Of a stretch of 64,000 bases of DNA, positions 25,116 to 63,498 are shown piece after piece. Origin of the DNA: Geothrix limicola (GTDB lineage: Bacteria > Acidobacteriota > Holophagae > Holophagales > Holophagaceae); contig NZ_BSDE01000009.1 in the NCBI RefSeq assembly GCF_030268085.1, positions 1 to 64,000 of the forward strand, written 5' to 3'. Position 1 is the stretch's first letter. Each line of letters starts with the position of its first letter. The notes beneath the pieces were generated by a model. That model was given only the letters and a program-made list of their open reading frames with translations. It searched no databases and had not been told where the DNA came from. Both the position numbers and the translations under genes were made by a program.

Positions 25116-25190
25116 TGTCGGATCCAAGATTCTTTGCGAATGATCAGTAATGGATGCGACTCTCCATTACGTTATGCAAATATCCAACAT
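25116..25190 (+). repeat. left transposon end with TnsB-site-like repeats
   Basis: After TGTCGGATCCAAGATTCT, copies of a TGCRA core start at element positions 20 (TGCGAATGATC), 40 (TGCGACTCTCC) and 60 (TGCAAATATCC), i.e. every 20 bp. Tn7-type TnsB binds such spaced repeats. The first two also occur at the right end. Confidence 0.7.
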
Positions 25191-32037: not shown

Positions 32038-32800
32038 GGGCTTCTCCTTCAGCCGTAGAGGGGTCAGTAAGGCTCGTGGGGATGTCTGTGCTGGCATCCA
32101 TGCAGGGATTACCTCCCTTGAGAATTCGAGCGATCTGGACGGGCAGGAACGCCTTCCCCGTGCGCGTGGTGATGCCACTTTCGGATAGCCGTTTGCCTAT
32201 GGCGCGAAGGGATACACCTTCCTTCCTGAGTTGGTGGATGAGGCTCACCGTCTGCATCTCCTCAGGCACCACCTGGAGCAAGCCATCCACACATCGGAAG
32301 CCGTAGGGCTCAAAGCCGCCTGTATATCTACCCGATGACTTCATGTGCGCCATCGCCATGGAAGTGCGCTCGGAGATGACATCCCGCTCGAACTCACTCA
32401 GGACCGCCAGCATCCGAAAGACCATCTTCCCCGTGCTGGAAGTGGTGTCGATCCGCTCAGATAGGGACACCAGATCCGCGCCCTTCCGCTCCAAGGTCTC
32501 CGCAATCATCAGCGTGTCCCTTGTAGAGCGTGCAAGGCGGCTCAGGCTGTAGACAACGAGCGAGTCACCACGGCTTACAGCCTTGAGGGCTTCCTGAAGC
32601 GCAGGACGGTTATCGCAACGCCCACCACTGAGCCCACGATCCACCAGGACTTCCACCAGTTCATAGGTGTTTGCGAGGCACCATCCACGGATCTTCTCCG
32701 TCTGTGCATCCAGGCTCACGCCGAAGTCAGCCTGATCCGTGGTGCTGACACGGCAGTAGCCGATGGCTCGAAGGTGTTGTCTGATCCGTTTTGCGTTCAT
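32021..32800 (-). CDS. serine recombinase (resolvase/invertase family)
   Basis: A 259-residue protein. The catalytic domain begins RAIGYCRVSTTDQADFGVSL (nucleophile Ser), with VYSLSRLARSTRDTL, then TSSTGKMVFRMLAVLSEFER. The C-terminal DNA-binding helix-turn-helix is VSLRAIGKRLSESGITTRTG. AGGAG precedes ATG32800. It overlaps the primase start by 17 bases. It could be a resolvase of cointegrates or an inverter; no res site was recognised. Confidence 0.85.
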   Translation of the reverse strand: MNAKRIRQHLRAIGYCRVSTTDQADFGVSLDAQTEKIRGWCLANTYELVEVLVDRGLSGGRCDNRPALQEALKAVSRGDSLVVYSLSRLARSTRDTLMIAETLERKGADLVSLSERIDTTSSTGKMVFRMLAVLSEFERDVISERTSMAMAHMKSSGRYTGGFEPYGFRCVDGLLQVVPEEMQTVSLIHQLRKEGVSLRAIGKRLSESGITTRTGKAFLPVQIARILKGGNPCMDASTDIPTSLTDPSTAEGEAHAAHD

Positions 32801-42719: not shown

Positions 42720-45700
42720 CTACTCCGCCTCCAGCTCGTATTCGGACGTGAGTTGCCGTGCCTCGTTATATATTTGGTACTTCTTTTTCTGCAGATTCTG
42801 AATGGCCACTGGTCCTTGGTAGACTTCCACCATGACCCGAAGCCCCTGATCGTCGTATGTGTAGACTTCCGTCGTATTCAGAATGGAATCCGACATCGTC
42901 TTCACTCGCCCAAGGGCGTCGTAAGTCATACTCAGTGCCTGGGTGCTATCTCCGATTAATTTGTATAAACCGGTAAGATTCCCTTGGAGATCGTACTGCG
43001 CACCCGTCGCTGCGCCGTTGCTTGCATACGCGGGAAGTTGATTATTTCCGCTTAAAGCGGCATCCAACGGATTAAAAGTATAGGTCTGAGCTTTCGACGT
43101 AGTATCCGTCGTGGCCTGATTCACATCTGGAGGAGTTGCACCCGCCGCCCAATTAAGAACCATCTTTGAGTTCAGGCCGGTTCGATTCCCAAACGAGTCA
43201 TATGCAAATTGCTGCATGACTCCGTGATTTTCATGGCCACTGGATGTATCCCATGGATCGCGCACGTACGCAGTTGTGAGTCTCCCGAGAGCGTCATAGA
43301 AGAACCAATCTTCTGTGTCATTCGTCATTCGTCCGGCAGAATCGTAGGTGTAGGTCCACGTTTTTGTAAATGCAGAAGGAATGACATGAGACATGGTCTT
43401 CAGGCGCACCTGATCACTATCGTAACCATAGGTACTGAATGCATTGTTTGCGTACGTAATATTGGTAAGGCCCCAGTGGATTGGGTCGTAAAATAGTGAG
43501 GCCAGATTACTGCCTCCAAACCCCGTCCAGTTTGGGAGTCCTTTCGCTTCATCGTAGGTAAATGATTGCGTGCTGCCGTCTGGATAAGTACGACTCGCGA
43601 TAAAACCATAGTTATTTGCGTCGTACCCAATTCCTTGTGTGAATGGTGGCAGTCCATCGATGGTGTAGTTGAGATCCGAAAGGCGTCCATTGAGACCCCG
43701 ATAGTGCAGGGATCTCGTTACGCCGCGTATCATTTCCGTCGCCGTCGTCAGTTTTCCATTAGAGGATCCGTGCCCTAATTCATCGTAGGCAAGACCGAAA
43801 TTTACCGTCCCATCTGCGCTGATGATGCTTGTGGCACGCCCAAGAGAGTCATAGTTCGTCGTTACAGATCGACCGTTGTAATCCGTGGTCTGGGCTTTCC
43901 CGTGAATCGTGAAATCGGAATAGGTCGTCGTACCGCTTTCTGGTTGAGTCAGCTGGTACAACCAACCCATACCGTTATAGGCCCAATTACGAACCTGTGT
44001 TCCAGAGGTTCCCGCTTGTGTCACCTTGGTGACGCGCCCGGCTTGGTCATAGTAATAGCTTGTACCTTGACCTAGCGCATCTGTTACACCAGCTAGCTGA
44101 CCCAATCCATCATAAATAAACTGGGTTTCGATACCGCCATGGACTACACGTTTCTTGGGCCCCTCATAATAGTAATGCACCACTTCGCCGTTTGGATCTG
44201 TTACGGTGCCAACGCGGCCCTGATTATCGTACTGGTATTGAGTGCCACTCGTTCCTCCCCATACGGATTCGAGGAGTTTTCTACCTTCGTAGTCATACTG
44301 GAATGTTTGACTGCCCCCCTGCCGATCCGTCTTAACCAACTCACCAAACCCGTTGTAGTGGTACGTCATCTGTTGCGCACCATGTGTAACCACAGCCGTG
44401 AGTAAATCCGGATAAGTTATTTCCGTCGACACCTCTGGAACCACCTGGACAGAGGAAAGCCTTCCGACGGCGTCCCACTGAATGGACGTGGTTTCCGAGT
44501 TGGCGCCGGTTTGTTGAGTAGGGCGACCAAACGAATCATGGATTTCTTCCACTGACCAATTCACCCCCAGAGGAGTGATTTTATTAACAAGCCCGTAAGT
44601 ATCAAACTCGTGAGATATTCCATATTGGCCAGATAGTGCCAAGTTCGAACTGGTCTGGGTGACACTTGTAGGATCTGGAAGACCTCCCGTATAGACATAA
44701 GAGGTGTCTACTTCTGGTGTTCCTCCTTGATTCACAGTTGCCTGATGGAGGCTGTTGTCAGCATTGTATGTGAAATTCACTGCAGGCTGTCCAGGCTTCT
44801 GCTCGCTAAGCTTGCGGCCCAGGAACCAATTCGCCCAATCGGATTCATAGGACCGGCTGATAGTCCTAATTAACGGTGAATCACCGAAATCAGCAGTAAG
44901 AGTTTGAGTCTTCCATCCACCGCCGCTCGCATCCCAATCTCCGCGAGATTCAATTCGATGGCGCACCGCCCAATTAGGGCCATCTTTCTCCCAGGTCTCT
45001 TGCCTAGTTGAATAAGGAGCATTCCCCAAAGTGGCAGCTGGACTATAAGCAGTCACAAAATTCCAATAAGGGTTGACCCAGTTTGATCCTACGGCAAAGC
45101 GACTAGCCTCCCCATCAGGGGTTCCAGGAGTTCCAACCAAGGGGGCTCCAAACTGAGTCACCCTGTAGGCCGTGCTCTGCCCTGGAACAGCGGTAAGATC
45201 CGATCTCCAATCCATACCCGGAGAATAGGTACGTTCATCCACTGGTTGATGCTTCAAGTGGGCGAGGGATTGATAATTATTCGAAGGGGTCGAGAGACTA
45301 ATCTGAGTTCCATTAATTGGTTCCGCAAACCGTGTCGTGATCACGTGTCCATCCGGATGTGTAACCGCCACCCAAAATGCCGTGCTGGTCCAGAACGGGC
45401 CGCTTGGACGGCTCGAATCAGGAATAGGTACCACCCGCTCATATGAGGTGGTTCGTGTCTGCCCACCCATCGTCAAGTCCTGATCGGCCACCAGAGAGAC
45501 GCCACCAGCCGTATAGATGTCCGTTAAGACAGGATCGATAAGGTATGCCATCACCGCTGGAGGTCGCCGATACTTGTATGGCTGCCAAGTGAAAGTCTGC
45601 TTGCGATTCGGAAAAGTTAGGGATTTCAGCGTGACCGGTATGAACATATTGATTGGGTCTGAGCATGCCACTGCGTAGTCGAATTGGACGTACTCACCCG

Positions 45701-46979
45701 TGTTATCCACTGTGAGTCGGTACGGTTGAAGATGCCGTCTGAATGCATCCCAAGGCTTGGTCCACACGCCTCCCCAACCACAAATTCCTGTCATATCTAC
45801 GTAGGTTCCGTACGTCACATATGAATCAAGGGAATAAGTGCTCGTCGTGGTACCTGGATAGCTAACCTGGATTCGACCCCCAGGATTGGCTTGCGAGTTT
45901 ACCCCTCCGCCGGTGTTGAGCGCTGGAACGGCTGAGACAGCAGGCATCCCCTGCAGCCGAACCTGGATGGACGCCAACGGAGATCCGCCGTTTCGCGTCC
46001 AGGTAGCATCGTAGTCTACACCGTTACCTGAACCACCATTCGGCTTGTGGTTGAAGGCAATCACATCTCCAAAACGATTTCGCCAGGAGAAAGGCAAATA
46101 GTGAATGGCCGTCAGATTAATTTGTGGAGGAGGAGCAATTGGTAAGGCCAATGTCATTGCACAAAGTACCGGACGTTCGTAATCCGTTCTTCCCGCTGAT
46201 GGCGATTTCGACCGATACGCCACATAGCCACTGCCAGCCGGTGACGGTGATCCACTCCAGTACGCACTATACTGGGGGTTCAAATAACGGAATTCCGTAC
46301 ACGTCAAGCCATCCCCGCTCACGACCAACATCCCGCCTGGTACGGTCTGAAGATCCGGATCAGGGTAATCAGAGGTTGGCCTCCAAGTGTACAGAGTGAT
46401 CGGTGCATAGGGGGTCCCTGCAGCTCCATATAGATCGATCAACAATTCTCCGTGAGTTCCGATGCCCATTAATTGCGCAGAAGTCACACCTGTGATTCCA
46501 AATTGATTCACCATCCTCATGGCGCGATCAGGATCCACAGGTGCCCCTGCTGCCACCCCAAACCCCAAACCACCAGAGGATCCATCTGGGAGCAGGAACT
46601 CGTTTTGATCCGAGAGAGAGTCGACCGCAATGGAAGCCCGAACAAAATAGCCTGGAGTGCAAACGCAAGAAGACCCACCGGTAGCAATCTGAGTCGGAGG
46701 CTCAGTACCGAATGCCATCGCTGGAGTTGTTTGAGGCGCGAACCTAGTCGCCAATCGGGGGGTAAACCGTACACCTCGCGCCCCAATGCCGGGCCCCATA
46801 GGGACATCAAAACTGATAGCCCCTGAGGGGACATCAATAGATGCCCCTCCATGAATCACGGAGGGTGTTTTGGCACGATCGAACTTCACCTCTGTGAAGG
46901 CCGAGTTGAAGCTCTGAGCAAAAGCCCCAACCCCGATTAGGCTCGCAGTCAATGAGATCCGAAGATGGTGCCAAAACAT
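42720..46979 (-). CDS. RHS/YD-repeat body protein
   Basis: A 1,419-residue secreted protein with a signal peptide (LTASLIGVGAFAQ). The first 700 residues are beta-rich and unlike the repeat part. From about residue 750 come YD repeats: IQWDAVGRLSSVQV, YHYNGFGELVKTDRQGG, YQYDNQGRVGTVTDPNGE, FIYDGLGQLAGVTDALGQG. It ends YQIYNEARQLTSEYELEAE, exactly where a normal RHS protein would continue into its core end. That end is encoded by the next gene. The coding DNA is lower in GC than the chromosome. Confidence 0.85.
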   Translation of the reverse strand: MFWHHLRISLTASLIGVGAFAQSFNSAFTEVKFDRAKTPSVIHGGASIDVPSGAISFDVPMGPGIGARGVRFTPRLATRFAPQTTPAMAFGTEPPTQIATGGSSCVCTPGYFVRASIAVDSLSDQNEFLLPDGSSGGLGFGVAAGAPVDPDRAMRMVNQFGITGVTSAQLMGIGTHGELLIDLYGAAGTPYAPITLYTWRPTSDYPDPDLQTVPGGMLVVSGDGLTCTEFRYLNPQYSAYWSGSPSPAGSGYVAYRSKSPSAGRTDYERPVLCAMTLALPIAPPPQINLTAIHYLPFSWRNRFGDVIAFNHKPNGGSGNGVDYDATWTRNGGSPLASIQVRLQGMPAVSAVPALNTGGGVNSQANPGGRIQVSYPGTTTSTYSLDSYVTYGTYVDMTGICGWGGVWTKPWDAFRRHLQPYRLTVDNTGEYVQFDYAVACSDPINMFIPVTLKSLTFPNRKQTFTWQPYKYRRPPAVMAYLIDPVLTDIYTAGGVSLVADQDLTMGGQTRTTSYERVVPIPDSSRPSGPFWTSTAFWVAVTHPDGHVITTRFAEPINGTQISLSTPSNNYQSLAHLKHQPVDERTYSPGMDWRSDLTAVPGQSTAYRVTQFGAPLVGTPGTPDGEASRFAVGSNWVNPYWNFVTAYSPAATLGNAPYSTRQETWEKDGPNWAVRHRIESRGDWDASGGGWKTQTLTADFGDSPLIRTISRSYESDWANWFLGRKLSEQKPGQPAVNFTYNADNSLHQATVNQGGTPEVDTSYVYTGGLPDPTSVTQTSSNLALSGQYGISHEFDTYGLVNKITPLGVNWSVEEIHDSFGRPTQQTGANSETTSIQWDAVGRLSSVQVVPEVSTEITYPDLLTAVVTHGAQQMTYHYNGFGELVKTDRQGGSQTFQYDYEGRKLLESVWGGTSGTQYQYDNQGRVGTVTDPNGEVVHYYYEGPKKRVVHGGIETQFIYDGLGQLAGVTDALGQGTSYYYDQAGRVTKVTQAGTSGTQVRNWAYNGMGWLYQLTQPESGTTTYSDFTIHGKAQTTDYNGRSVTTNYDSLGRATSIISADGTVNFGLAYDELGHGSSNGKLTTATEMIRGVTRSLHYRGLNGRLSDLNYTIDGLPPFTQGIGYDANNYGFIASRTYPDGSTQSFTYDEAKGLPNWTGFGGSNLASLFYDPIHWGLTNITYANNAFSTYGYDSDQVRLKTMSHVIPSAFTKTWTYTYDSAGRMTNDTEDWFFYDALGRLTTAYVRDPWDTSSGHENHGVMQQFAYDSFGNRTGLNSKMVLNWAAGATPPDVNQATTDTTSKAQTYTFNPLDAALSGNNQLPAYASNGAATGAQYDLQGNLTGLYKLIGDSTQALSMTYDALGRVKTMSDSILNTTEVYTYDDQGLRVMVEVYQGPVAIQNLQKKKYQIYNEARQLTSEYELEAE

Positions 46980-50296: not shown

Positions 50297-50367
50297 GCCA
50301 TTCACCTCAGCCAACGCGATAGGTTTCGACTCCACCCGCAATGGCTTTGGACACACAGAGAGGCTCT

Positions 50368-51117
50368 ATGCGTAGAAAAAAGAATAAGCCCCGACCCAGG
50401 GCCAAGCAAGGCTTTCCTGAAAATTCTGGAAACCCTGTCCCCAGGAGACCTGTCCGCAAAATCCGACCGACCTACCGAAGTGTGACTGGACAGATGTGGT
50501 CAGCAAAGAACCAGCGCCACGTTGGATTCGAGAGTTTCGGCGAGAAGCGAGTATTCCTGGCTCTGGAGATGGATCCACTGGTGCTGAACTATTGTGAGCA
50601 GCCTGTCTCCATCAGTTATACCGACGCGGAAGGGATCGAGCGCAGCTACACCCCAGACGTACTCGTAACCTACGACCAAGAACTCTGCAGCCTCCCTCCA
50701 CTTCTTGCGGAATTCAAATACAGCAGGGAACTCATGGATGAAAGGAAGTGGAGACGCCTCCAGCCAAAGCTTCAAGCGGGTCTGGAGTTCGCGAAGGCCA
50801 ACGACCTCTATTTCACCCTCTGGACTGAGCAGAACCTAGATCCGGATCACCACCACCATGTGAACGCCCTTCGCGCACTCCTTCGAGGGCCCGTCGACCC
50901 AGCAATGGAAACACTCATTCTCAGCCGCCTCCAGAGCATGGGGCAGACGACTGTCGAAGCGTTAGTAACTGCACTCCAAGAGGAGGCGGCCCCTGAGTCC
51001 GTGAGGCGTGCGACCTGGGGACTAATAGCGTCAGCCAAGATCCACGCGGATTTCATCGCAGCCGGACATCCCAGCACCCGGATCTGGCCCCTGAATGAAG
51101 GAGCTGCCCATGTCTAG
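50368..51117 (+). CDS. tnsA: TnsA-type transposon endonuclease
   Basis: A 249-residue protein. The nuclease residues of TnsA are in order: E in VGFESFGEKRVFLALE (about residue 58), D in SYTPDVLVTY (about 95) and E-x-K in LAEFKYS (about 115). The C-terminal half is the DNA-binding TnsA_C-like helical part. TnsA cuts the 5' ends, so the element should move by cut and paste. Start at 50,368 (GAGAGG); the stop overlaps tnsB by 8 bases. Confidence 0.87.
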   Translation: MRRKKNKPRPRAKQGFPENSGNPVPRRPVRKIRPTYRSVTGQMWSAKNQRHVGFESFGEKRVFLALEMDPLVLNYCEQPVSISYTDAEGIERSYTPDVLVTYDQELCSLPPLLAEFKYSRELMDERKWRRLQPKLQAGLEFAKANDLYFTLWTEQNLDPDHHHHVNALRALLRGPVDPAMETLILSRLQSMGQTTVEALVTALQEEAAPESVRRATWGLIASAKIHADFIAAGHPSTRIWPLNEGAAHV

Positions 51118-52987
51118 GCTGAGAGAGCATCTTCAATCGATTCCAGTAGACCCAAGGGATCTGCTCAGACCCGATATCACTAGCTCACCCTCAGCGCCGT
51201 TGATGCGAGTGACGAGGCGGGAATCCAGATCAATACGCGACATTTTAGCAGCGGCTACCCCTGCTGCCCCTGAGCCCCCGATCAGTGCTCTCAAAGAAAG
51301 AGCCTGGGAGGAGGCTGTTCTTCGCGGACAGGCCATTCGTGACATGGTCGCAGCACCAGCAAGAAAGGACGCTGTTGAGGAAGTCGCAGCAAGGTACAGA
51401 GTTGATGTGTCAACCCTGTACCGATGGCTCTCAAGATTCCAGGAGGGAGGTGGACGTTTATCAGCGCTCGCACCTAAAAAGTGCGGGGGCAAAAGCTATT
51501 CCCGACTCGATCCGAGGGTTGAAGATCTCGTAACTAAGGCCGTTGACGAGTACTTCTTGGAACAACCGAGAAGGCAAGTCACCAGTGTGTGGGACGACCT
51601 GGATGACGCATGTCAGGCTGCAGGTCTAGAGCCGCCCAGCATTAATACACTTTGGAATCGTATTAAACGTCTGGATGATCATCTCATACTGGAACGTCGT
51701 TACAGTGCAAGAGTCGCGAGAGAAAAGCTCGGGGATCTTCCCAGTTCCTTCAAGGGGGCCAGCGCTCCACATGCATTGGTCCAGATCGACCACACCAAAG
51801 CTGACGTTCTTTTACTCGACGAGGAGTTGCGACTTCCAATCGGGCGTCCCTGGATCACAGTAGTTGAGGATATTTACTCACGGATGATTCTGGGTTTTTA
51901 TGTCAGCCTCGACCCACCCAGTGCACTCTCCGTGGGCCTAGCTATCGCACATGCGGTGCTTCCGAAGGAGTCCTGGTTGGCCGAGCGCGGCATCGACCTC
52001 GCTTGGGCATGCCAAGGGCTCCTCGGATGCGCATACGTTGACTCGGGTCTCGATTTGAATGGGTCACTGATGAAAAGGGGCTGCCAAGAATACGGGATCG
52101 ATCTTCAGAACCGCCCACTCGGCCAGCCCGATTTCGGCGGACACGTCGAGCGGCTAATCGGAACGCTCATGCGAAAGACGCACGAGCTTCCAGGAACGAC
52201 CTACTCAAATGTCGCCGAAAAGGGTGACTACGACTCTACGGCTCAGGCCTGCATGACCCTGCAAGAATTCGAGATCTGGATCGCTCAGTACATCCTCGGT
52301 GTGTACCACAATCGCCCCCACCGCGGTATTGGTCGGCAATCCCCCAGGCAGCGGTACGAGTCCTGGTTCCAGGAACACGGAAAAAACCTCGGAATTACTG
52401 GCGCTCCATTGCCACATGACCAGCATCGATTCCGCCTCGATTTCCTTCCATTCGAAGAAAGGACCATCCAGCGGTCCGGAGTGGAGATGCACCACGGAAT
52501 TTCCTATTTCGCTGACGTTCTCCGTCCATTCATAAAGGAGAAGGACCCGGAGAATCCCAAAAAGGGGCGTAAATTTCGTTTTGCGTATGACCCCAGAGAT
52601 ATTTCGATCATCTACTTCTGGCATCCGGTATCTGAGGAATACGTACCTATCCCCTGGAAAGATAGTTCCAAGAGGCCATTGAGCCTGTGGGAACGCCGTC
52701 GCGAAACTCAAGAAAGGCCATCCGAAGACCCGCTCGCCAAAGCGACCATACGCAAGAGCAGAACCGCTATGCGCAATACCCAAGAAGGGGCTAAGGCAGC
52801 GACACAAAAGATCCGTCGCGATTTTGCTCGTGCCAAGCAACATAGCACCAAGAATATCCACCGACAAATTGAGCAAGACACATCCCGGTTTCCACTACCA
52901 ACTCGTCCCAACACAGGACTAGGTGAGCCGAATCTGCAGGACGAAGCGGCCTGGATCCCAGTCGCCCCATACAGCGTCATCGAATAG
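51110..52987 (+). CDS. tnsB: TnsB-type DDE transposase
   Basis: A 625-residue protein. A helix-turn-helix (VAARYRVDVSTLYRWLSRFQ) binds the ends. The Mu/retroviral integrase core has D in LVQIDHTKADVLL (about 226), D in CAYVDSGLDLNG (about 309) and E in GGHVERLIGTL (about 346). HNRPHRGIGRQSPRQRYESW follows. It joins the 3' ends to target DNA. GGAG precedes ATG51110. It is nine bases upstream of tnsC and in the same operon. Confidence 0.92.
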   Translation: MSRLREHLQSIPVDPRDLLRPDITSSPSAPLMRVTRRESRSIRDILAAATPAAPEPPISALKERAWEEAVLRGQAIRDMVAAPARKDAVEEVAARYRVDVSTLYRWLSRFQEGGGRLSALAPKKCGGKSYSRLDPRVEDLVTKAVDEYFLEQPRRQVTSVWDDLDDACQAAGLEPPSINTLWNRIKRLDDHLILERRYSARVAREKLGDLPSSFKGASAPHALVQIDHTKADVLLLDEELRLPIGRPWITVVEDIYSRMILGFYVSLDPPSALSVGLAIAHAVLPKESWLAERGIDLAWACQGLLGCAYVDSGLDLNGSLMKRGCQEYGIDLQNRPLGQPDFGGHVERLIGTLMRKTHELPGTTYSNVAEKGDYDSTAQACMTLQEFEIWIAQYILGVYHNRPHRGIGRQSPRQRYESWFQEHGKNLGITGAPLPHDQHRFRLDFLPFEERTIQRSGVEMHHGISYFADVLRPFIKEKDPENPKKGRKFRFAYDPRDISIIYFWHPVSEEYVPIPWKDSSKRPLSLWERRRETQERPSEDPLAKATIRKSRTAMRNTQEGAKAATQKIRRDFARAKQHSTKNIHRQIEQDTSRFPLPTRPNTGLGEPNLQDEAAWIPVAPYSVIE

Positions 52988-52995
52988 GACCTCCC

Positions 52996-53922
52996 ATGAC
53001 CATGACTCAGGATCCAGACGAATCCAGGCTTTATCCCCACCTCGGCGATGCCGCACGAGCGGTGATCGATGCAGGGCTTGAAGCTCGAATCCGCTTCATC
53101 AAGGAAACTCATTGGATCGGTTATGCACAAGCAGACCTCATCCTTGCCCGGATGAAAGAGTTACTGGACGCACCACGCGTTGACCGACCCGAATGTCTCG
53201 TCATTTTAGGCGACACCAATAATGGCAAGACCAGTATTCTTCAACGCTTCGCGAACTCCCAAGTACGGATTGAACGTGGAGATGGAAGTGGGTCCGAATG
53301 GCCCGTTGTTACTATCCAAGCCCCTCCAGTCGCAGATGAGAAGCGCCTGTATACCGCGATCCTCCACAGAGTAGGGGGCCTCGGAGCCAGTCTGCGAACC
53401 CGCTCTGCACTCTTCACTGCGACGATTACGACGCTTTCCGGCATCGGAACCCGGATGCTTGTAATCGACGAAATCCATCACCTCATTTCGGGAAGCACCA
53501 ACCAGCATCGAATTTGCCTCAACGCCCTCAAATACCTGGCAAACGAGCTTCGCCTCTCAATCGTGGTCGCAGGTATCAGCGACGCTCATTATTCGCTCGG
53601 CGTCATCGATCCCCAGCTTGAAAACCGCTTCAAGCCGATGCAGTTGCCACGCTGGATAGATGGGGTCAACTTCCGCCGTCTGTTAGCCAGTATCGAGATG
53701 ATTCTTCCCCTGAAGAAGCCGTCAATTCTTCAGAGGCCCGTGATGGCAAAGCGCCTCGCCATCCTCTCTGACGGCAAGATCGGTGAGCTCCTGACCATTC
53801 TCGTTGCCGCAACGGTCGAGGCCATTCGCTCTGGAAAGGAGTGCATCGACGAAGGTGTCATTACGCAGATCCAGGATATCGCTCCGGCATATCGTCGGCG
53901 CACCCTACGAGATGATCTCTGA
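52996..53922 (+). CDS. tnsC: TnsC/TniB-type AAA+ ATPase
   Basis: A 308-residue protein. Walker A is LGDTNNGKTSILQRFAN (about residues 72-88) and Walker B TRMLVIDEIHHLISG (about 152-166). The arginine-finger region LENRFKPMQLPRW is typical of TniB. The ATPase matches target DNA and the TniQ selector to the transposase. It follows tnsB by 8 bases and overlaps the first tniQ gene. Confidence 0.9.
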   Translation: MTMTQDPDESRLYPHLGDAARAVIDAGLEARIRFIKETHWIGYAQADLILARMKELLDAPRVDRPECLVILGDTNNGKTSILQRFANSQVRIERGDGSGSEWPVVTIQAPPVADEKRLYTAILHRVGGLGASLRTRSALFTATITTLSGIGTRMLVIDEIHHLISGSTNQHRICLNALKYLANELRLSIVVAGISDAHYSLGVIDPQLENRFKPMQLPRWIDGVNFRRLLASIEMILPLKKPSILQRPVMAKRLAILSDGKIGELLTILVAATVEAIRSGKECIDEGVITQIQDIAPAYRRRTLRDDL

Positions 53923-54916
53923 AATGGGACTTGGAACTCTTTACCAGTCCGCGGCAGCGGCCAACCTTTGGCCCCTTCGTCCCCATCCCTATCCCGATGA
54001 GCTTCTTTCTTCTTGGATAGCTAGAATTGCTCAAGCCAATGGAGTGGATTTCAAGTGCGTCCTTAGTGAGATATGGCCAAGACAGAAAACCCCAGGGCCA
54101 CTCCTCGAGGTTGATCCTCCTTCTGAGATCCTTTCAGTTCTCGCTCAGCGGTCAGGGTTACCACCGGAACACGTACACCACCTGGTGCTCTCAGAACTCA
54201 TTGACCCAATCTACAAAAGTAACCCTAGAAAAATTCAAGAGCGCCTCGATTACGTACCTAGAGCACTTCGAAGCGTCCTCTCTCATCGAAACCAGTTTTG
54301 CCCGGATTGTCTTGCTACTGATCCTATTCCCTACTTCCGACGAAGCTGGCGGCTGAGCGCAGTAACGGCTTGCAGTTGTCATGGGCGATTACTGATCGAA
54401 TGGTGTTGGAACTGCCACAGAGAATCTCGCTGGCGGCTTCCAGTATGGCTTCGATGCAAGGAAGCCCAGGTTTCTAGGAGTAGAAAAGGTTCGTGCACTT
54501 GCACTTTAGAGCCAGCAGAAAAGGCCTCCCCATTGGCAATCCGCTTACAGGATCGGCTTCTCACCATCCTCAGGCGTAAATCATTCCGACCCGATCCCGT
54601 GATGGCAGAAGCCAACCTTAGTCCGGTAGATCTCCACTTCTTGGTCGAGCATCTGCTCTCCAAGCGCACTGTGGCTTTGCAATTCCAGGACCGACTAAAA
54701 ACACTAGCGGGCGACGGCCCAAACCGTGAGTGGTCACCCACGGGCCACCCCCGTCAGGCACTCGGGCACCTCACTGTACGAAAACGTCATGCATTCATGG
54801 ATGCAGCAGCTTGGGCGTTGGAGTTAGGGCCTCATCGGACAGGGATGCCCATCCATAAAGCGACCCTCGCCGGAAAGCTTCGTTATCGCATTGAATTAGA
54901 TCGGAGGAATCGATGA
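53912..54916 (+). CDS. tniQ: TniQ/TnsD-type target selector 1
   Basis: About 334 residues. The TniQ start is WPLRPHPYPDELLSSWIARI AQANG. A zinc-binding region has FCPDCLATDPIPYFRRSWRL and ACSCHGRLLIEWCWNCHRES (a C-C-H-C-C pattern near residue 125-165). The C-terminal domain is shorter than in TnsD. Start is ATG53912 or ATG53924; the former overlaps tnsC. It may be a TniQ-like helper rather than the site selector. Confidence 0.82.
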   Translation: MISEMGLGTLYQSAAAANLWPLRPHPYPDELLSSWIARIAQANGVDFKCVLSEIWPRQKTPGPLLEVDPPSEILSVLAQRSGLPPEHVHHLVLSELIDPIYKSNPRKIQERLDYVPRALRSVLSHRNQFCPDCLATDPIPYFRRSWRLSAVTACSCHGRLLIEWCWNCHRESRWRLPVWLRCKEAQVSRSRKGSCTCTLEPAEKASPLAIRLQDRLLTILRRKSFRPDPVMAEANLSPVDLHFLVEHLLSKRTVALQFQDRLKTLAGDGPNREWSPTGHPRQALGHLTVRKRHAFMDAAAWALELGPHRTGMPIHKATLAGKLRYRIELDRRNR

Positions 54917-56307
54917 GCGGAGCATGCTGGCCAATTCGCCCACCTCCACTGGGTGGAGAGCTTCTCTCCTCATGGATGACCCGGATCGCCAAAGCCAATG
55001 GGGTGAGCCTCCAATGCCTCTGCTGGGAAACATGGCCGGGCTCGGACCTGCTCATGCGCGATATCGATCGCCATCCACCTCCCGGATTCATTGAGGAACT
55101 CGCCAAACACTCGGGACACCCAGCCGCAAGTATTCAGCGGTTGGTGCTTCGTTCATTGGTCGGGCGGCTTCTAGTAAACCTTCCACCTGGCTCTGGATGG
55201 GTCCAATGGATTCTACCAATCCTTCTGCGGACACGAGCCGCCTATGGCATCCAATACTGCCCCGAATGCCTCGCGAAGGATATCGAGCCTCACTGGCGTC
55301 TGAATTGGCGCCTAGCCTTCGTCACGACCTGCCCTCAACACTTTAGGGTTCTATCCGACACCTGTTCATCATGTGGTGTAGCACCAAACCCATTAGCCCT
55401 CTTCAAGGGGAAACGACCTGCTACAGAGCCAGTACCCGTGCATTTGTGCCGTTGGTGCGGACAGGACTTCCGGGTCATATGTAACGACCCTAGTAACTCA
55501 AATTCTCCGTCCAAGGGGGTGGTCCATTTCGAGACGACCCTGCTTCAAGCCCTCCAGGAAAATTGGATGGATGTGCCTGGACATGGCCTCGTTCATAGCA
55601 TCCCGTACTTTCGAGGGCTTCACCTTATCGTGACCATCCTCGCCTCAAAGGGGCAGTCAGGACGGTTTCGGGCTGCTGTTTGCCAAGAATTGGGCATTGA
55701 TCAACCCCCGAAACTCATTCCAGGACGAGGCGGGCGCGTTCTATTTGAGCTCCAAAACGTCAGCACCCGGCATCAACTGGTGGCAATGGCAGCATGGCTA
55801 ATGGAGGATTGGCCTCATCGATTCACACAAGCCTGCCGAGAGGCTTCGCTGAGTGGGACTCGCCTTACACTCGAACTTCAGCGAGATGCCCCGTACTGGT
55901 ATTGGAAATCAACGGGTGAACAATTAGGTTCGAAGCGAGCCCAGTGGCGGCGCGCGGCGCTGCCGGACGGCCTGAGCCTATCCTATGACGACGTCAGCCG
56001 CAGACTTCAGAGCAGGAAGCTTTTGTCACAGGAGCGTCGCATCCGGTTCGTCCGTGATCATCCCGAGCTATGGGGGGATCCCTTACGGCTCACAAATGCC
56101 CTGCGGAGCGCAGGACTCTATAGTCCGAACTCTGCTCCGTCGCTCTTGGTTCCGTACTGCACGGTGCTGATTGCATTGGCCAAAGGCGAGGGATTACTCC
56201 ACTGTTTTACCAAGTCTCTGGCCGTGTGCTGCGTTAGGGGAAGAAGACAGATGGTCCTATTACCTTCCGTCAGTCCATCAACTGAGACTTCAGGCACTTC
56301 AGGGTGA
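54913..56307 (+). CDS. tniQ: TniQ/TnsD-type target selector 2 (longer)
   Basis: A 464-residue paralogue. It starts WPIRPPPLGGELLSSWMTRI AKANG like the first. Zinc ligands are in YCPECLAKDIEPHWRLNWRL, TCPQHFRVLSDTCSSCGVAP and LCRWCGQDF. A long C-terminal part (from about residue 280) is unique to this protein and could read the attachment site. ATGA overlaps the previous stop. It ends 30 bases before the convergent gajB. Confidence 0.82.
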   Translation: MSGACWPIRPPPLGGELLSSWMTRIAKANGVSLQCLCWETWPGSDLLMRDIDRHPPPGFIEELAKHSGHPAASIQRLVLRSLVGRLLVNLPPGSGWVQWILPILLRTRAAYGIQYCPECLAKDIEPHWRLNWRLAFVTTCPQHFRVLSDTCSSCGVAPNPLALFKGKRPATEPVPVHLCRWCGQDFRVICNDPSNSNSPSKGVVHFETTLLQALQENWMDVPGHGLVHSIPYFRGLHLIVTILASKGQSGRFRAAVCQELGIDQPPKLIPGRGGRVLFELQNVSTRHQLVAMAAWLMEDWPHRFTQACREASLSGTRLTLELQRDAPYWYWKSTGEQLGSKRAQWRRAALPDGLSLSYDDVSRRLQSRKLLSQERRIRFVRDHPELWGDPLRLTNALRSAGLYSPNSAPSLLVPYCTVLIALAKGEGLLHCFTKSLAVCCVRGRRQMVLLPSVSPSTETSGTSG

Positions 56308-56337: not shown

Positions 56338-58107
56338 TTACCGAATTGAAGGCCCGGCGGGAAAAATTTCCTTCAGGAACCGGGATGGTTTCGTTCTAAT
56401 ATCTGGGTTCTTAAGCGTGAACAACATTAAGAGTTTTTTGGCTCGGGTGATGGCTACATATAGGAGCCTCCGACCCTCTGCTTCAATTTCATCACCAGGT
56501 TTGCATTTGTAGAATGGGACATGCCCATCGAACACATCGATAAGAGCAACAGCCTCGAATTCTCTCCCCTTCGAGCTATGCATTGTTAAGAGCCTTACTG
56601 CCTCACTACCTCGAGCGAATAGTCCAAGGTCCTGCACAGTAGTTCCTCTGGATCCATGGCTCCGCTCGTGATTCTGTATTTCAGTAATCATTTGATCGGA
56701 CGCGGCCTTCAACTTACAAATATCCGTCTCCAGGATTAACTCGGATTCGATAAGAGTCTCAGCCAGGTGGGTGGTGAATTCTGCTATGAACTCAATTGCG
56801 GATTTCTTGGAGCCAGCTATCGCCTTCGCGTGACGAAGAATTCTGACTACAGTCACGTCGCCTTGAAATCCAAGATCTGACTGGCGCGAAACAGGGAGTT
56901 CACGCAACAGAGTGCTAACTTCCCTCCGAACAGTCGAAAAACTACCGATTGTCGGTGAGAGCGCACAAGCCGAAACTTCTTCTAGAAGTTTTGCAATTAA
57001 GGATGATCCACGCCTGTAGGGACGCGCGCCCGGGCCAATCACGGGAGTCTTATTTTCACGAAGAGCACGAGCCAGTGGCGGGTGACTTGTCCACCTATTG
57101 GCCAGAATCCCAACCTGAGACAGAGATATTCCATGCTCCTGCACCGCGGGAAGGAAAATATTTAAAATCCCGAAAGACATATCTGGAACTGCGTACCACT
57201 CTGGCCGCCTTGAGAATCCCGCATATTCACCAGAGGCTTTCATTCGTTCTGACCGAGGGCATAATTTGTCGGCGAGTTTGAGTATTTTCTCCGAGGACCG
57301 AAAGTTCTCTAGAAGCTCTATGTCAGTTCGAGCAGAGACCTCAGCACCGAATTCATTCATTAGATCTGGTCTAGCACCAAAGCCAGACATGATTGATTGA
57401 AATGGATCCCCGACAATAAAAAACTTGGTTCGCTTGTATCGATTGATTGCACGTAGGATTTCCACCTGCATTACTGTAGTGTCTTGGAATTCGTCAACAA
57501 GTAACCACTGGTACCGACTCGCCAAACCCCGTGCAATATGGCCAATTTTTAACACAAGACGAGCAGACCAGTAGATGATCCCATTAAGGTCAACAAGATT
57601 ATTTTTATCTAGTACAGCCCAGTATTCCTTTGCAGCTTCTTCGCTAATGTCTTCTGGGAGCTGGCCGCTGCCTCGATATAGGTTTTCGAATTGACCACGC
57701 GCTCGACCAGGCAGCTTATATTTTTTTAAAATATGGGTAACTATACCTTCAAATCTTTGGTCATCACAGGCTAAGATCTCAAACCCATTCGAAAAGGCTT
57801 TAATGTGCCATGCGTATGGGACAAGAATGTGCTTCAAACAAAAACTGTGAATTGTCTCAACTTCGCAGCTGTACCCTTCCCTGAACCCAAGTCCGGAAAG
57901 GCGAGATTCAATCTCGTTAACAGCAGCGTTCGTGTACGTAATACATCCCACGAGGCGAGTGGATGATGTCACTTCCGGCAAAATCTCTACAATTTTAGCA
58001 ATCAGAGTACGCGTCTTCCCACTTCCTGGGCACGAAACTAGCGATAGATGTGTCGGATGTGAAACAGCGCTCTGCTGATCTTGTGTAAGTTTCAACCTCG
58101 CACCCAA
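56338..58107 (-). CDS. gajB: Gabija GajB, UvrD-like helicase
   Basis: A 589-residue SF1 helicase. Motif I is VSCPGSGKTRTLIAKI (about residues 25-40). Motif II is LLVDEFQDTTVMQ (about 203). Motifs V and VI are TMHSSKGREFEAVALID and RRLLYVAITRAKKLL. Its start overlaps the end of gajA by 16 bases, as in Gabija operons. GajB joins the GajA complex and is activated by DNA ends or by nucleotide depletion during phage infection. Confidence 0.88.
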   Translation of the reverse strand: MGARLKLTQDQQSAVSHPTHLSLVSCPGSGKTRTLIAKIVEILPEVTSSTRLVGCITYTNAAVNEIESRLSGLGFREGYSCEVETIHSFCLKHILVPYAWHIKAFSNGFEILACDDQRFEGIVTHILKKYKLPGRARGQFENLYRGSGQLPEDISEEAAKEYWAVLDKNNLVDLNGIIYWSARLVLKIGHIARGLASRYQWLLVDEFQDTTVMQVEILRAINRYKRTKFFIVGDPFQSIMSGFGARPDLMNEFGAEVSARTDIELLENFRSSEKILKLADKLCPRSERMKASGEYAGFSRRPEWYAVPDMSFGILNIFLPAVQEHGISLSQVGILANRWTSHPPLARALRENKTPVIGPGARPYRRGSSLIAKLLEEVSACALSPTIGSFSTVRREVSTLLRELPVSRQSDLGFQGDVTVVRILRHAKAIAGSKKSAIEFIAEFTTHLAETLIESELILETDICKLKAASDQMITEIQNHERSHGSRGTTVQDLGLFARGSEAVRLLTMHSSKGREFEAVALIDVFDGHVPFYKCKPGDEIEAEGRRLLYVAITRAKKLLMLFTLKNPDIRTKPSRFLKEIFPAGPSIR

Positions 58108-59891
58108 GCAACAGCTTCCTCGATGTAGGCAGGCAAATCGTTCGCCTGGTTTGCAAACTCAGAGGCCACTTGAGCGAATCTGGCTTTGCCAAACCTTCTC
58201 GCAGTTCGCAGAACTGCCTGGCCCACTGAATTCAGTTCAGTTTGGCTGAGAGACTTCTTTTTATCGGCCCCTTGTAACAGTGCAGCGGTTTTGGCGGCCC
58301 CAAGCCTAGTGGCTGTGCTTCGAAGCATCGTGAGGTTCCCCTTACTCGCAAGCTCAAGTTCAAAAGTGGTACGCGAAGCGATAACCTTGAAAAAAGGTCC
58401 CTCCAGCTTTTTTAGTCCCTCGATTGAAGGATTCCCACCATCCTCATTACCTCCGCCACACTCATCTTCAGCCTCAGTCTCTGGTGATAGATCTCCATCG
58501 GTAATCACCACGCACCGCTTTTCAATACCACCTTTTTTAAAGAGATTCCCATATGCAGCGAAATGAGTTCCATGTATCGCAATGACAGCTATACCTTCCA
58601 TCTGAAGGTCTATTCCAAGTCGTTCCTTGACCAAAGGCGGAATCAAGAACACCTCTGACATCCCTTCAACAAGAATGACTCGCCGGGCGAAAAGGAGAGT
58701 TGATCGTGTTGCATCAAGATATCGTTCCAGGTCCTTCTCTTCCTCTGAATTCAAGCCACATCCAATGGAAGGCACCACGCAGGTAGAGTGGGAACTCCTA
58801 TTTGCAGTCAGTATTACTGTGTTTTTCAAAGGAGAAATGGAAGTTACATGGGTACTGTGCGTTGTCGCAATCACCTGGCATCCACTTGTCTGCAGGCTCG
58901 AAAATACAATTCGTTGAAGCTCGGGATGAAGGTGTGATTCTGGTTCTTCAACGAGGAGCAGCTGACCAGCAATATTTGATCGCGATGTCCGCTGCCTAAA
59001 TACCTCCATTAGCATGCTGATATAGAGTGCATTATTAAGCCCAAGTCCATTTCTAGATGGATCAGCTTCAGCGAGACCATTTGATGAGATCAACAAAACC
59101 AAGGATCGCGCCAAGGAATTAAATGAAGGATCGGAGATTCCGACCTCAACTCCGAAGTTGAAGCTATCTCCCACAGTTTGCAGCAGGGATGATCGGATGC
59201 TCTCACCTAGATTTGTGACAACCGCTTCTTTCTTGAGTTCATCATTCGCTGATCGGAGGCGGTCAAGAAGCTTCTCTTTTTCTATCTCGGAGAGATTAGC
59301 TTCATCGAGCAGTTTGGTAAGAGGAGAAAACCTGGAACGCCGAAGGTCTTCTTCCACATCCCGTAACGCCTGGAGAAAAGTGATATGAAAAGCGCAAAGC
59401 CGATCAAAACGAGCAGGAGCACCTAACTCGTCATCCCACTGAATCAAAGTTGGGTCTTTCCCTCCGATACCTGCCAGTTGCCACTCGTAGTCTTCGATTT
59501 TTAGCGACTTGGGCGATCTGGATCCATCCTTCACTCCCTGACGGGCGGACCTTCCGGGTCTGAACCTGTAACAAAGCGCGGCTACGTCATCAGATGTGGC
59601 CCACTCGCTTACTAGGGCTTCTTCTTCTGGCCGCGCTGCGAACCCTGTTAGTTCAACTGCAATCAGAATTTGTTGGGGTTCGTCACAATTGACTCCCCTT
59701 GAAAAGTCATCACGTGAAAGCTGTCGGGTATAATTTGAGAGATTGGCATCAAGTACTAATCTCAGTGCATGAAGAAGAGTTGTCTTCCCTGAATTGTTTT
59801 CACCGATCAGGCAGGTAAGGCCGGGTTGGAGTTGAATATCTAGATTCTTTAGGGCGCGGAAATTCCGAATTACTAATCGGCGGATGTACAT
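58092..59891 (-). CDS. gajA: Gabija GajA, OLD-family ATPase-nuclease
   Basis: A 599-residue protein. The N-terminal ATPase has LIGENNSGKTTLLHALRLVL (Walker A), an LVEEPESHLHPELQRIVFSS Walker B and signature, and ATTHSTH. The C-terminal TOPRIM nuclease is marked by VILVEGMSEVFLIPPLVKE (about residue 405) and CVVITDGDLSPETEAE (about 463). Next to gajB it makes the two-gene Gabija defence system, which nicks phage DNA. The start follows the membrane gene by 45 bases. Confidence 0.9.
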   Translation of the reverse strand: MYIRRLVIRNFRALKNLDIQLQPGLTCLIGENNSGKTTLLHALRLVLDANLSNYTRQLSRDDFSRGVNCDEPQQILIAVELTGFAARPEEEALVSEWATSDDVAALCYRFRPGRSARQGVKDGSRSPKSLKIEDYEWQLAGIGGKDPTLIQWDDELGAPARFDRLCAFHITFLQALRDVEEDLRRSRFSPLTKLLDEANLSEIEKEKLLDRLRSANDELKKEAVVTNLGESIRSSLLQTVGDSFNFGVEVGISDPSFNSLARSLVLLISSNGLAEADPSRNGLGLNNALYISMLMEVFRQRTSRSNIAGQLLLVEEPESHLHPELQRIVFSSLQTSGCQVIATTHSTHVTSISPLKNTVILTANRSSHSTCVVPSIGCGLNSEEEKDLERYLDATRSTLLFARRVILVEGMSEVFLIPPLVKERLGIDLQMEGIAVIAIHGTHFAAYGNLFKKGGIEKRCVVITDGDLSPETEAEDECGGGNEDGGNPSIEGLKKLEGPFFKVIASRTTFELELASKGNLTMLRSTATRLGAAKTAALLQGADKKKSLSQTELNSVGQAVLRTARRFGKARFAQVASEFANQANDLPAYIEEAVAWVRG

Positions 59892-59936: not shown

Positions 59937-60866
59937 TCATCGAGATGCAGCCTCACCATCATTTAAACGCATATGTGGAGGAAGGCTTTGATTTAATTTC
60001 GGGTTCTTTTTCAGAGCGTCCACAATAAATTTATTCATGACCTGGAGTTTTCGATAGAAAGCTGTGTCCCGACTAAGCGTCGACTGATCGTGGCTAAGAT
60101 ATTCAGGATCAGTATATGCTCGCACTCGCGCAATGACAAAAGATGCTTCGGATGCCTTAAATCGATATGCCTTGGCCTTAGTCATTAGCACTTGTCGCCG
60201 AGCGTACTGCTCATACATCGATGGAACGGGCGCGAGTGAAAGGGCCTCCTTAAAAGAAATATTGACCCCCTGTTCAACGGCACCTAGTGCCTCAAGATCA
60301 AAATCCCTGAGAGAGAAGTAGAGTTCATTCTCACTACGGATTAATTCTTCGATGTTGTCGTTTAGCTCTCGTTGAAGTCTGGAGTAGAAAGCCCCTTCAC
60401 GCTTTTGACAGGAAACAAGCTCAGTTGTGGCCTTTTCTACGGATTCGATCCGTTGACGGTGAAGACTGGCCTTAACAAGCATTACCTGGGCCCACGAATA
60501 GACCTCTTCTCCTGCTTGGACTTTCCGTTGATCAGTGAGGCGGGCGAGATCCTGATTGAACTCTCCAAGTTTGAAAGTTGCTTCTCCAATCTTTTGATAG
60601 GCAGGATCGTAGATACTCGTTGGAACCCCAAAATCTGGATTTGCGAGGATACTTAGAAGCTCCCCATATGCTTGGTGAATACTCTTAAGCGCCTCGGCAC
60701 CCCTGTCATAGAGCAATTTATCATTTTGGCGGACAAATTCTCGATGTGAAGCTCCTAACTGGTAAAGATTGATACAGATTGGGATGAACGTCAAAATGGC
60801 GCCAATTCCTCCCACCCAAAGGGTGATTTTTTGTGAATTCGTGAATTTTCGAAATGGAATCATCAA
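59937..60866 (-). CDS. membrane-anchored coiled-coil protein upstream of Gabija
   Basis: A 309-residue protein with one N-terminal membrane helix (ITLWVGGIGAILTFIPICIN). The rest is highly charged and helical (RAEALKSIHQAYGELL-like and LQRELNDNIEELIRSENELY), likely a coiled coil facing the cytoplasm. No enzyme motif is seen. It is the first gene of the run into gajA and gajB, 45 bases upstream. It could be an accessory or a separate cargo gene. Confidence 0.6.
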   Translation of the reverse strand: MMIPFRKFTNSQKITLWVGGIGAILTFIPICINLYQLGASHREFVRQNDKLLYDRGAEALKSIHQAYGELLSILANPDFGVPTSIYDPAYQKIGEATFKLGEFNQDLARLTDQRKVQAGEEVYSWAQVMLVKASLHRQRIESVEKATTELVSCQKREGAFYSRLQRELNDNIEELIRSENELYFSLRDFDLEALGAVEQGVNISFKEALSLAPVPSMYEQYARRQVLMTKAKAYRFKASEASFVIARVRAYTDPEYLSHDQSTLSRDTAFYRKLQVMNKFIVDALKKNPKLNQSLPPHMRLNDGEAASR

Positions 60867-61410: not shown

Positions 61411-61650
61411 ATGTCGGATAGCAAGACAGTCACGATCTCAGTGAACACAGTTGATCATGTGGTACCTCACCAAAAGATTTCGTATGCGGCACTAGTGGCG
61501 CTGGCATTCCCCGGTGCGACTGGAACGAATTTCATAGTTAAATACTACAAAGGGAATTCCGACAACTTGACAGGCACTCTGCCTCCCGGCGGAGAAGTTA
61601 TGGTGAGAGATGGCATGGACTTCCGAATTACAGGCACTGGCGAGTCGTAA
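61411..61650 (+). CDS. single-domain bacterial ubiquitin-like protein (multiubiquitin family)
   Basis: A 79-residue protein. It has the beta-grasp order of multiubiquitin domains: TISVNTVDHVVPHQKISYAA, LVALAFPGATGTNFIVKYYK, GGEVMVRDGMDFRITGTGES. The pattern ISYxxLVALAFP and the VMVRDGMDFRIT end are typical of that family. Usually several copies are fused; here there is one. The end is Gly-Glu-Ser rather than Gly-Gly, so conjugation would need trimming or another chemistry. CCGGAG precedes the ATG. It overlaps the E1 gene by 41 bases. Confidence 0.8.
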   Translation: MSDSKTVTISVNTVDHVVPHQKISYAALVALAFPGATGTNFIVKYYKGNSDNLTGTLPPGGEVMVRDGMDFRITGTGES

Positions 61651-62797
61651 TCCGTTCATCGAAACTCTCGTCAAACAGGGCTACGACATCGGGTTTATTA
61701 ACGCCCATCTCATCATTTTCGGCGTGCCTTATCTCAACGCCTCGGGTGAGTTGAAGTATCTCGACATGATCAGTCCAATAGATCTGCGCGAGGGATACCT
61801 GATTGGCAGTCCATCGGACCATAAGGTCTATTTTGCCGGTGAGATCCCTTGCAACCTTGATGGACAAAGAGTCTACGCAGGTACGATCGAAGAGCGACGT
61901 ATAGTGTCGGATCAAATTGTCGGCACCCGGATGCTCTCCAGCAAGCCGGAAGGCTTGAGGCCGTACCACTCTATCGAGGAAAAAATCAACCAGTACCTTG
62001 CCCTGATTGCTTCGCCTGCCATTCATAAGTTTCCCGGCGTTACCCCTCGACGGGTCCTGACAAAACACATTGAGTCAGCAATAAGCCCGTTGAAATTCCC
62101 TGACACGCTGTCTGCCCGTGAAGGCGTGGTGGAGCTGTCACATAAACTACGACAGCAGAAAGTGGCCATCATTGGATGTGGCGGCACCGGCGCGTACGTG
62201 TTGGACTACCTCGCCAAGACCCATCTTGAGGAGATCCATCTCTTCGATGACGACATTGTCCACGTGCACACGCTCTTTCGACTCCCTGGGGTGCATGGAG
62301 AGAGGCAACTGGGTCTGCCCAAGGTCGAGGCATTGGCCGAGGCCTATGGAAACTTTCATGGCGGCATCAAGCCACATGTTGAACGCGTTGATCAAACCAA
62401 TGTCGCGTGCTTGGCTGATTTCCACTTCATCTTCGTCTGTGTTGATGATGCTCCGTCTCGACAAATGATTGTTCAGGCATGCCACAGCGCTTCAGTGCCA
62501 TTTGTGGACGTGGGCATGGGTTTGAATAAGGGCACAAATGGCTTGTATGGATTCGTTCGTACCGCTGGCGGCGCGCCTGGCGATTTTGACAAGCTCAATG
62601 GCACGCCTTACTTGCCCGCACAAAATGCCCATGATGAAGAATATAGAAATCAACCTCAGATTGCGGAACTCAACGCACTCAATGCTGCGATGGCGGTGAT
62701 CCGGTTCAAGCAGTACATGGGATTCTTCGACCGCCTAACAGATTCACATGCCGTTGTGTTTGATGTTGCCGCAATGACAATTGATGAAACAACATGA
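61610..62797 (+). CDS. E1-like ThiF adenylyltransferase with N-terminal DUF6791-like domain
   Basis: A 395-residue protein. Residues 1-150 resemble DUF6791: NPFIETLVKQGYDIGFINAH, HLIIFGVPYLNASGELKYLD, HKVYFAGEIPCNLDGQRVYA, with a conserved Cys at about 81. From about 180 it is an E1: KVAIIGCGGTGAYVLDYLAK binds ATP. HLFDDDIVHVHTLFR, FIFVCVDDAPSRQMIV and VPFVDVGMGL follow. No CxxC zinc knuckle is visible. It would adenylate the Ubl tail. The start at 61,610 (GGTGAG before it) overlaps the Ubl gene. Confidence 0.85.
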   Translation: MAWTSELQALASRNPFIETLVKQGYDIGFINAHLIIFGVPYLNASGELKYLDMISPIDLREGYLIGSPSDHKVYFAGEIPCNLDGQRVYAGTIEERRIVSDQIVGTRMLSSKPEGLRPYHSIEEKINQYLALIASPAIHKFPGVTPRRVLTKHIESAISPLKFPDTLSAREGVVELSHKLRQQKVAIIGCGGTGAYVLDYLAKTHLEEIHLFDDDIVHVHTLFRLPGVHGERQLGLPKVEALAEAYGNFHGGIKPHVERVDQTNVACLADFHFIFVCVDDAPSRQMIVQACHSASVPFVDVGMGLNKGTNGLYGFVRTAGGAPGDFDKLNGTPYLPAQNAHDEEYRNQPQIAELNALNAAMAVIRFKQYMGFFDRLTDSHAVVFDVAAMTIDETT

Positions 62798-63198
62798 GCG
62801 ACAGATTATATCGCATAATCGAGAGTGATCGGCTTCCGCCCCAGGTAGGGCCATATGAGTTTTATTACAGCCGTCGCTTCGAGATGGCCGCCTTGGCCTG
62901 CGCCTGTGGTTGCGGTCATCGAGTCATGCTGAATTTACTTGATCAGCATCACCTCGTTATAGAAGGGGGATTTCCCACTGTCACCCCTTCTATCCTGGTT
63001 TCAGACGCTCCTTGTTTATCTCACTTCTTCATCCGACGGGGCCAGGTGGAATGGGCTCAACAATGGTCTAAGAAGACAGTCGATAGGGTCATGCGGTCTC
63101 AGGTACGTCGACACGTCGAACAAGACAAGAAGCGAAAGTTAAAACCTTCTCTCCTACGCCGCTGCGTAGATTGGTTCACATCGTGGTTTGAACGCTAA
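62794..63198 (+). CDS. DUF6527-family zinc protein
   Basis: A 134-residue protein. The family hallmark is ACACGCGHRVMLNLLDQHHL (Cys36, Cys38, Cys40 and His42) followed by VTPSILVSDAPCLSHFFIRR and GQVEWA. The cysteines likely hold zinc. The role is not established; such genes recur beside multiubiquitin and ThiF genes. The ATGA overlap with the E1 gene ties it to the operon. The basic C-terminus (RHVEQDKKRKLKPSLLRR) may bind nucleic acid. Confidence 0.82.
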   Translation: MSDRLYRIIESDRLPPQVGPYEFYYSRRFEMAALACACGCGHRVMLNLLDQHHLVIEGGFPTVTPSILVSDAPCLSHFFIRRGQVEWAQQWSKKTVDRVMRSQVRRHVEQDKKRKLKPSLLRRCVDWFTSWFER

Positions 63199-63439: not shown

Positions 63440-63493
63440 GAATCGAGCATTCGCAAGGTTTGTTGGAAGTCGCAGGAATTCTTGGATCCGACA
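63440..63493 (-). repeat. right transposon end with TnsB-site-like repeats
   Basis: Read inwards from 63,493 it starts TGTCGGATCCAAGAATTC. Repeats TGCGACTTCC (element position 20 from this end) and TTGCGAATGCTC (position 39) follow. Both motifs occur at the left end in the opposite order. The spacing is about 20 bp. Confidence 0.7.
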
Positions 63494-63498
63494 GCAAG
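63494..63498. repeat. right copy of the 5-bp target duplication GCAAG
   Basis: It is identical to 25,111-25,115. After it the comEA frame resumes with CAGCACGGC. Confidence 0.93.

Follow-up and report, generated by a model that had tools for sequence, protein, structure and literature searches.

We find that three overlapping genes near the right end of a 64,000-nucleotide stretch of Geothrix limicola DNA (the window) form a genuine, intact and mobile representative of a known family of ubiquitin-like (Ubl) operons, in which the modifier ends family-wide in Ser and the E1-like enzyme carries an invariant Tyr instead of a Cys. Taken as a whole, the operon is best explained, and on balance we think probably so, as a mobile, DUF6791-type module for Ubl conjugation that is related to Bub.

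The first gene (61411–61650, + strand) encodes a 79-aa Ubl modifier with a single Multi_ubiq beta-grasp domain (PF14452, E=3.5e-9) and the C-terminus TGTGES. Its 3′ part overlaps by 41 bp the gene of a 395-aa E1-like enzyme (61610–62797, +), which consists of a DUF6791 domain at residues 17–166 (PF20590, E=2.8e-26) and a ThiF adenylation domain from residue 177 (PF00899, E=1.3e-21), and this gene in turn overlaps by 4 bp that of a 134-aa zinc-type DUF6527 protein (62794–63198, +; PF20137, E=8.8e-18). The Pfam matches of all three proteins are well above the curated cut-offs. No E2 or JAB gene was found in the operon from the ORF list and Pfam, and the overlapping ORFs leave no room for one. 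A preliminary description of the window had recognized three overlapping genes, a one-domain Ubl ending in Gly-Glu-Ser and the absence of a separate E2 and JAB, and on all of these points it was correct. In a PADLOC search, the Ubl and DUF6527 proteins had no match and the E1 matched an E1-E2 model weakly, via the ThiF region only. The operon genes are under purifying selection, with dN/dS of 0.07–0.15 in comparisons with a genome of the same genus (G065, E1 84% identical) and a proteobacterial MAG (L066).

The operon is the rightmost cargo of a Tn7-like transposon of 38,378 bp (25116–63493), and its end lies ∼295 bp from the right end of the element. The element encodes TnsA, TnsB, TnsC and two TniQ proteins (50341–56307, +), the two TniQ genes being adjacent to each other, and has TGT..ACA ends. 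Its terminal inverted repeats, TGTCGGATCCAAGA, lie at 25116–25139 (+) and 63470–63493 (−), and the 5-bp duplication GCAAG precedes the left repeat at 25111–25115 and follows the right one at 63494–63498. Nine congeneric genomes hold the empty site, in which window position 25115 is joined straight to 63494. A Gabija system (56338–59891, −; GajB 56338–58107 and GajA 58092–59891, E=1.8e-168 and 2.6e-197) adjoins the Ubl operon. The exact ends, duplication, empty sites and cargo bear out the earlier placement of the three genes at the right-hand edge of a transposon with defence genes. Between GajA and the Ubl operon is the gene of a 309-aa protein (59937–60866, −) whose N-terminus resembles a membrane segment by eye and which has no Pfam or PADLOC match. 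The cargo additionally includes two very large adjacent ORFs (38568–42716 and 42720–46979, −; 1382 and 1419 aa) with no PADLOC match, the former containing 480-bp repeats, as well as a 956-aa ORF (29308–32178, −) that weakly matched a DRT-associated PADLOC model (E=1.1e-11). A short helix-hairpin-helix ORF, ComEA-like by eye, is found in the right flank of the element. A second Tn7-like association was seen in Marivirga sericea (L108, 8–3210), where TnsB, TnsC and TniQ homologues lie upstream of a related Ubl-E1-DUF6527 operon.

A scan of genome contigs returned at least 499 relatives, and the 80 loci kept span many bacterial phyla as well as archaea of the Nitrososphaerota. The E1 was also matched by 160 plasmid records, 108 of them across most of its length, and viral contigs gave one marginal locus. 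The Ubl gene is beside E1 in 86 of 87 operons and the DUF6527 gene in 84 of 87, with some of the operons that lack one or the other sitting at contig ends. Since the E1 and DUF6527 genes of relatives touch or overlap, there is no space for an E2 or JAB gene there either. About half of the relatives have a Ubl of 106 aa or less, so a single-domain Ubl is ordinary in the DUF6791-type family. In the E1 tree, changes of phylum label exceed the minimum, and one genus can hold distant copies of the operon; both are in keeping with mobility.

One family-wide feature is the end of the modifier. In all 83 distinct operons the terminal residue of the Ubl is Ser, and in none is it Gly, with the usual tail reading F-x-V-x-x-T-[GD]-x-S. 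The E1 start lies inside the Ubl gene in identical phase in 83 of 83 operons, and in the window the TCG codon of the terminal Ser (61645–61647, +) contributes bases to the E1 codons of both Ser12 and Arg13. We considered whether the Ser is merely imposed by this overlap, and rejected the idea because the E1 codon that lies over it varies between Arg, His and Leu (CGT in 46 operons, CAT in 31, CTT in 6) whereas the Ubl frame has TCG, TCA or TCT there, Ser every time. Furthermore, the Ser codon begins with a base that also serves as third base of an E1 codon, and this base is always T, while at comparable codons elsewhere in these genes C is about as common as T or commoner (AGC 407 versus AGT 232; AAC 775 versus AAT 750). 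Together, the varied E1 codon, the fixed Ser and the invariant T indicate that selection on the tail operates through the Ubl reading frame. The absence of both a JAB and an extended Ubl from the DUF6791 family fits a modifier that is made already mature. The modifiers known to us that are conjugated by E1-type enzymes all expose a C-terminal Gly, and we know of no precedent for a C-terminal Ser as the conjugated residue.

In the E1, the nucleotide-binding loop GCGGTG (62174–62191, +; residues 189–194) belongs to a set of ATP-binding residues that is invariant across 83 E1s: GxGGTG at 189–194, D213, R224, K238 and D279. An AF2 model of the protein (pLDDT 89.5) had BubCD as its best PDB matches, and the nearest solved structure both in sequence (6e-12) and in fold (3.9e-15) is the Citrobacter BubCD. 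Tyr345 (62642–62644, +), which we propose as the E1 nucleophile, is invariant in 83 of 83 sequences and lies in the crossover loop, directly ahead of the same helix as Tyr370 of BubCD, itself invariant in 14 of 14 Bub E1s; the equivalence of the two is by loop position in the sequence alignment, where the loop varies in length and MAFFT puts them in separate columns. One PDB entry is a Y370F mutant of BubCD in complex with BubB and BubA, and from its title and from what is reported for Bub we take Tyr370 to have this role; Bub, in the 2026 work of Ye and colleagues, is reported to operate through oxyesters. The invariance of Tyr345 and its match with Tyr370 suggest a Tyr oxyester route in the E1.

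DUF6791 occupies the place that JAB has in BubCD. Six of its positions are invariant or nearly so among the 83 E1s, namely His71 (61820–61822, +; 83 of 83), Gly77, Pro80, Ser110 (61937–61939, +; 82 of 83), Lys125 and Tyr129, and Ser110 is a possible nucleophile. A similar order of residues led us to compare DUF6791 and the E2 of Bub (Prok-E2_E), and we claim no homology, as profile-profile scores fell within the shuffled range with both 6 and 16 E2 sequences. The DUF6527 protein has its core at 62899–63024 (+), with C36/C38/C40, P65-S66 and C74/H77. Pro15, Cys36, Cys38, Gly39, Cys40, Pro65, Ser66, Cys74 and His77 are invariant in 84 DUF6527 members and mostly also in Bub, and Ser66 and His77 are kept in every aligned DUF6527, Bub and two prophage copies included. 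Despite a confident AF2 model (pLDDT 93), a fold search of the protein against the PDB gave no match. In phages, weak tblastn matches to DUF6527 were found in two phage records. Two relatives of DUF6527 (L063 and L064) sit in prophage-like gene clusters, match phrog_3362 and retain the equivalents of Ser66 and His77.

In the mechanism that we propose, the ThiF domain would adenylate the carboxylate of the C-terminal Ser of the Ubl, its ATP-binding residues being intact, and Tyr345 of the crossover loop would then receive the Ubl in an oxyester rather than a thioester bond, as the counterpart of this Tyr in BubCD suggests. The fused DUF6791 would stand in for E2 and JAB and help to hand the Ubl to its target through His71 and Ser110; this E2-like role is proposed from position and residues and is the weakest step. 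Precursor trimming would be needless, as translation already leaves the final residue of the Ubl exposed. DUF6527, which is common to Bub, would play an accessory part, probably as a zinc protein that binds targets or deconjugates the Ubl. The wider proposition, that Ser-terminal modifiers are widespread in bacteria and archaea and are activated and conjugated via their Ser by a two-domain Tyr-oxyester E1 with no separate E2 or JAB, we advance tentatively, as possible but doubtful.

The E1 could instead form a thioester at Cys81 of its N-terminal domain and thereby act as combined E1 and E2, which is how the preliminary description had read a Cys that it took to be conserved. The window protein has this Cys, as do 49 of 83 relatives, but position 81 is His in 21, Tyr in 8, Phe in 3 and Ser in 2, so that 34 E1s have another residue in operons that are otherwise complete, and the position changes 12 times on the tree. 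Cys277, the only other common Cys aligned to one in the window E1, is replaced in 25 of 83 sequences, and the 83-sequence alignment contains no invariant E1 Cys. Cys81 was therefore rejected as a conserved nucleophile, and we regard the thioester reading as highly unlikely. A serine protease is another candidate: DUF6791 and/or DUF6527 might trim or remove the Ubl, a reading that is compatible with conjugation and that we judge to fall a little short of probable. It would account for the conserved Ser-His pairs (S66/H77 in DUF6527, S110/H71 in DUF6791) and for the location of DUF6791 where BubCD has JAB, and the Bub paper reportedly describes serine proteases of a new family, with a Ser-His dyad, in Bub operons. 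However, all Ubls of the family end at the same residue, which makes trimming unneeded, and H77 is equally a possible zinc ligand in a protein for which there was no fold match.

Two further readings do without a protein conjugate or give the Ubl a different task. MccB, which acts on the C-terminal Asn of the MccA peptide, is among the best fold matches of the E1 (E=5e-13), and given that the last residue of the Ubl is invariant and not Gly, the E1 might modify the Ubl tail in the same style. We consider this unlikely, as the E1 is nearer to BubCD than to MccB, and DUF6527 and the type of upstream regulator are common to Bub conjugation operons. The adenylation domain, being of the ThiF family, would likewise suit the activator of a metabolic sulphur carrier of the ThiS/MoaD kind, but a C-terminal Gly is found in 0 of 83 Ubls, the distribution is sporadic and mobile, and the best structural neighbour is a Bub E1. 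The preliminary description had named a metabolic neighbour in all relatives as the sign of such a role, and among 125 downstream ORFs no metabolic gene recurs. A sulphur carrier is for these reasons very improbable, the least credible of the readings, and a conjugation module related to Bub remains our preferred one.

As for the function that such a module would serve, the neighbouring genes of relatives are informative. The 139 ORFs upstream of 75 operons include 40 HTH_3, 37 Peptidase_M78 (ImmA/IrrE) and 3 WYL proteins by Pfam, none of which is among the listed families of the 125 downstream ORFs, where no family occurs more than four times. By motif search, an HExxH protein lies upstream at 35 of 75 loci versus downstream at 2 of 69, and in about half of the 75 operons HTH and ImmA/IrrE genes are found just upstream. 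These HTH/ImmA and WYL genes are similar to CapH+CapP and CapW, which regulate immune operons once DNA has been damaged (PMC13373217). In the window, no CapH-, CapP- or CapW-like gene adjoins the operon. The downstream genes of relatives are varied, several of them being defence genes in a tally that has no random control. For Bub, phage protection has not been demonstrated, as its authors state (PMC13373217). We infer that the operon most likely serves a stress- or phage-induced defence.

Should the Ser-ended Ubls prove to be conjugated, ubiquitin-like tagging would follow wider chemical rules than has been supposed, and the three small genes would offer a minimal setting for direct tests of the need for an E2 and a deubiquitinase. 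The residues that make the mechanism testable are the terminal Ser, Tyr345, Ser110, His71 and, in DUF6527, Ser66 and His77.

Several known systems bear comparison with the operon. Bil (BilABCD), to which the preliminary description had compared it, is also a bacterial Ubl conjugation system, with four genes that include an E2 and a JAB (PMC11354881), both absent here, and no DUF6791 or DUF6527 is described for it; Bub is closer through its Multi_ubiq modifier, the nearest E1 structure and its DUF6527 gene. With the Cap2 E1-E2 fusion of CBASS, the window operon has in common a single polypeptide that could bear E1 and transfer functions, whereas the CD-NTase and effector of CBASS are absent from the window operon and the N-terminus of its E1 is DUF6791 and not the Cap2 E2. 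In a Nostoc sp. C052 plasmid (L164, 2117–6829), a Bub operon adjoins a nucleotidyltransferase and a SAVED-domain gene, an arrangement that is CBASS-like. The ZDHYS365 multi-ubiquitin domain protein of PDB 9cd2 is a member of the same modifier family, as its C-terminus ...GMIFYVTQTDKS is the signature of DUF6791-associated Ubls, although it has 222 aa versus the 79 aa of the single-domain window Ubl.

The gene arrangement itself was listed in 2006 by Iyer et al. as operon class 6e (polyUbl) (PMC1779556, Table 1), and with this class, the sister structures of Bub and the family Ubl in PDB 9cd2 on record, the earlier suggestion that the system may not yet have been described in detail is not supported. 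Like class 6e, the window operon has a polyUbl-type (Multi_ubiq) Ubl, an E1 with a non-JAB N-terminal domain, comparable to the ‘domain X’ that replaces JAB, and the metal-binding protein Y, here DUF6527 (PMC1779556). DUF6791 would be domain X by its position. The class as listed includes an E2/RWD protein that is inactive, and its Ubls mostly have two to three domains, whereas the window operon has no E2 and one Ubl domain; a solo Ubl is mentioned for one species, and the table gives the E2/RWD protein for class 6e overall without stating that every variant has it (PMC1779556), which is why we file the operon as a variant. The class 6e operon of Synechocystis plasmid pSYSX contains a DUF6527 gene, and the Zn-finger example of the class, sll6052, is from Synechocystis (PMC1779556), a tie to the pSYSX operon by species.

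Bub differs in having a Prok-E2_E (BubB) and a Prok-JAB (BubC), where the window operon has no E2 gene and DUF6791 in the place of JAB, and its Ubl ends at Gly whereas DUF6791-type Ubls end at Ser. The Ubls of Bub finish with TTEG or continue past the Gly in a fusion or extension, some of these extensions needing a protease, and in the solved structure the last residue of the BubA construct is Gly229. A Citrobacter plasmid operon illustrates the Bub layout, with CapS (WP_001567865.1), a fused BubA-BubB, an E1 that matches PDB 9ea4 at 1e-252, and DUF6527; the same CapS is the E. roggenkampii one named beside a Bub operon (PMC13373217). In a Rhizobium Bub operon (L149, 6870–7478), a ClpP-like protease subunit gene directly follows DUF6527, a possible link to degradation. 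Bub and the window operon nevertheless share a Multi_ubiq modifier, the closest E1 in sequence and fold, an invariant Tyr in the crossover loop and a DUF6527 gene after E1, which stands fourth in Bub operons, and in both families HTH/ImmA or WYL regulators lie upstream of many operons. We place the window operon as the domain-X variant of Iyer class 6e and a sister to Bub.
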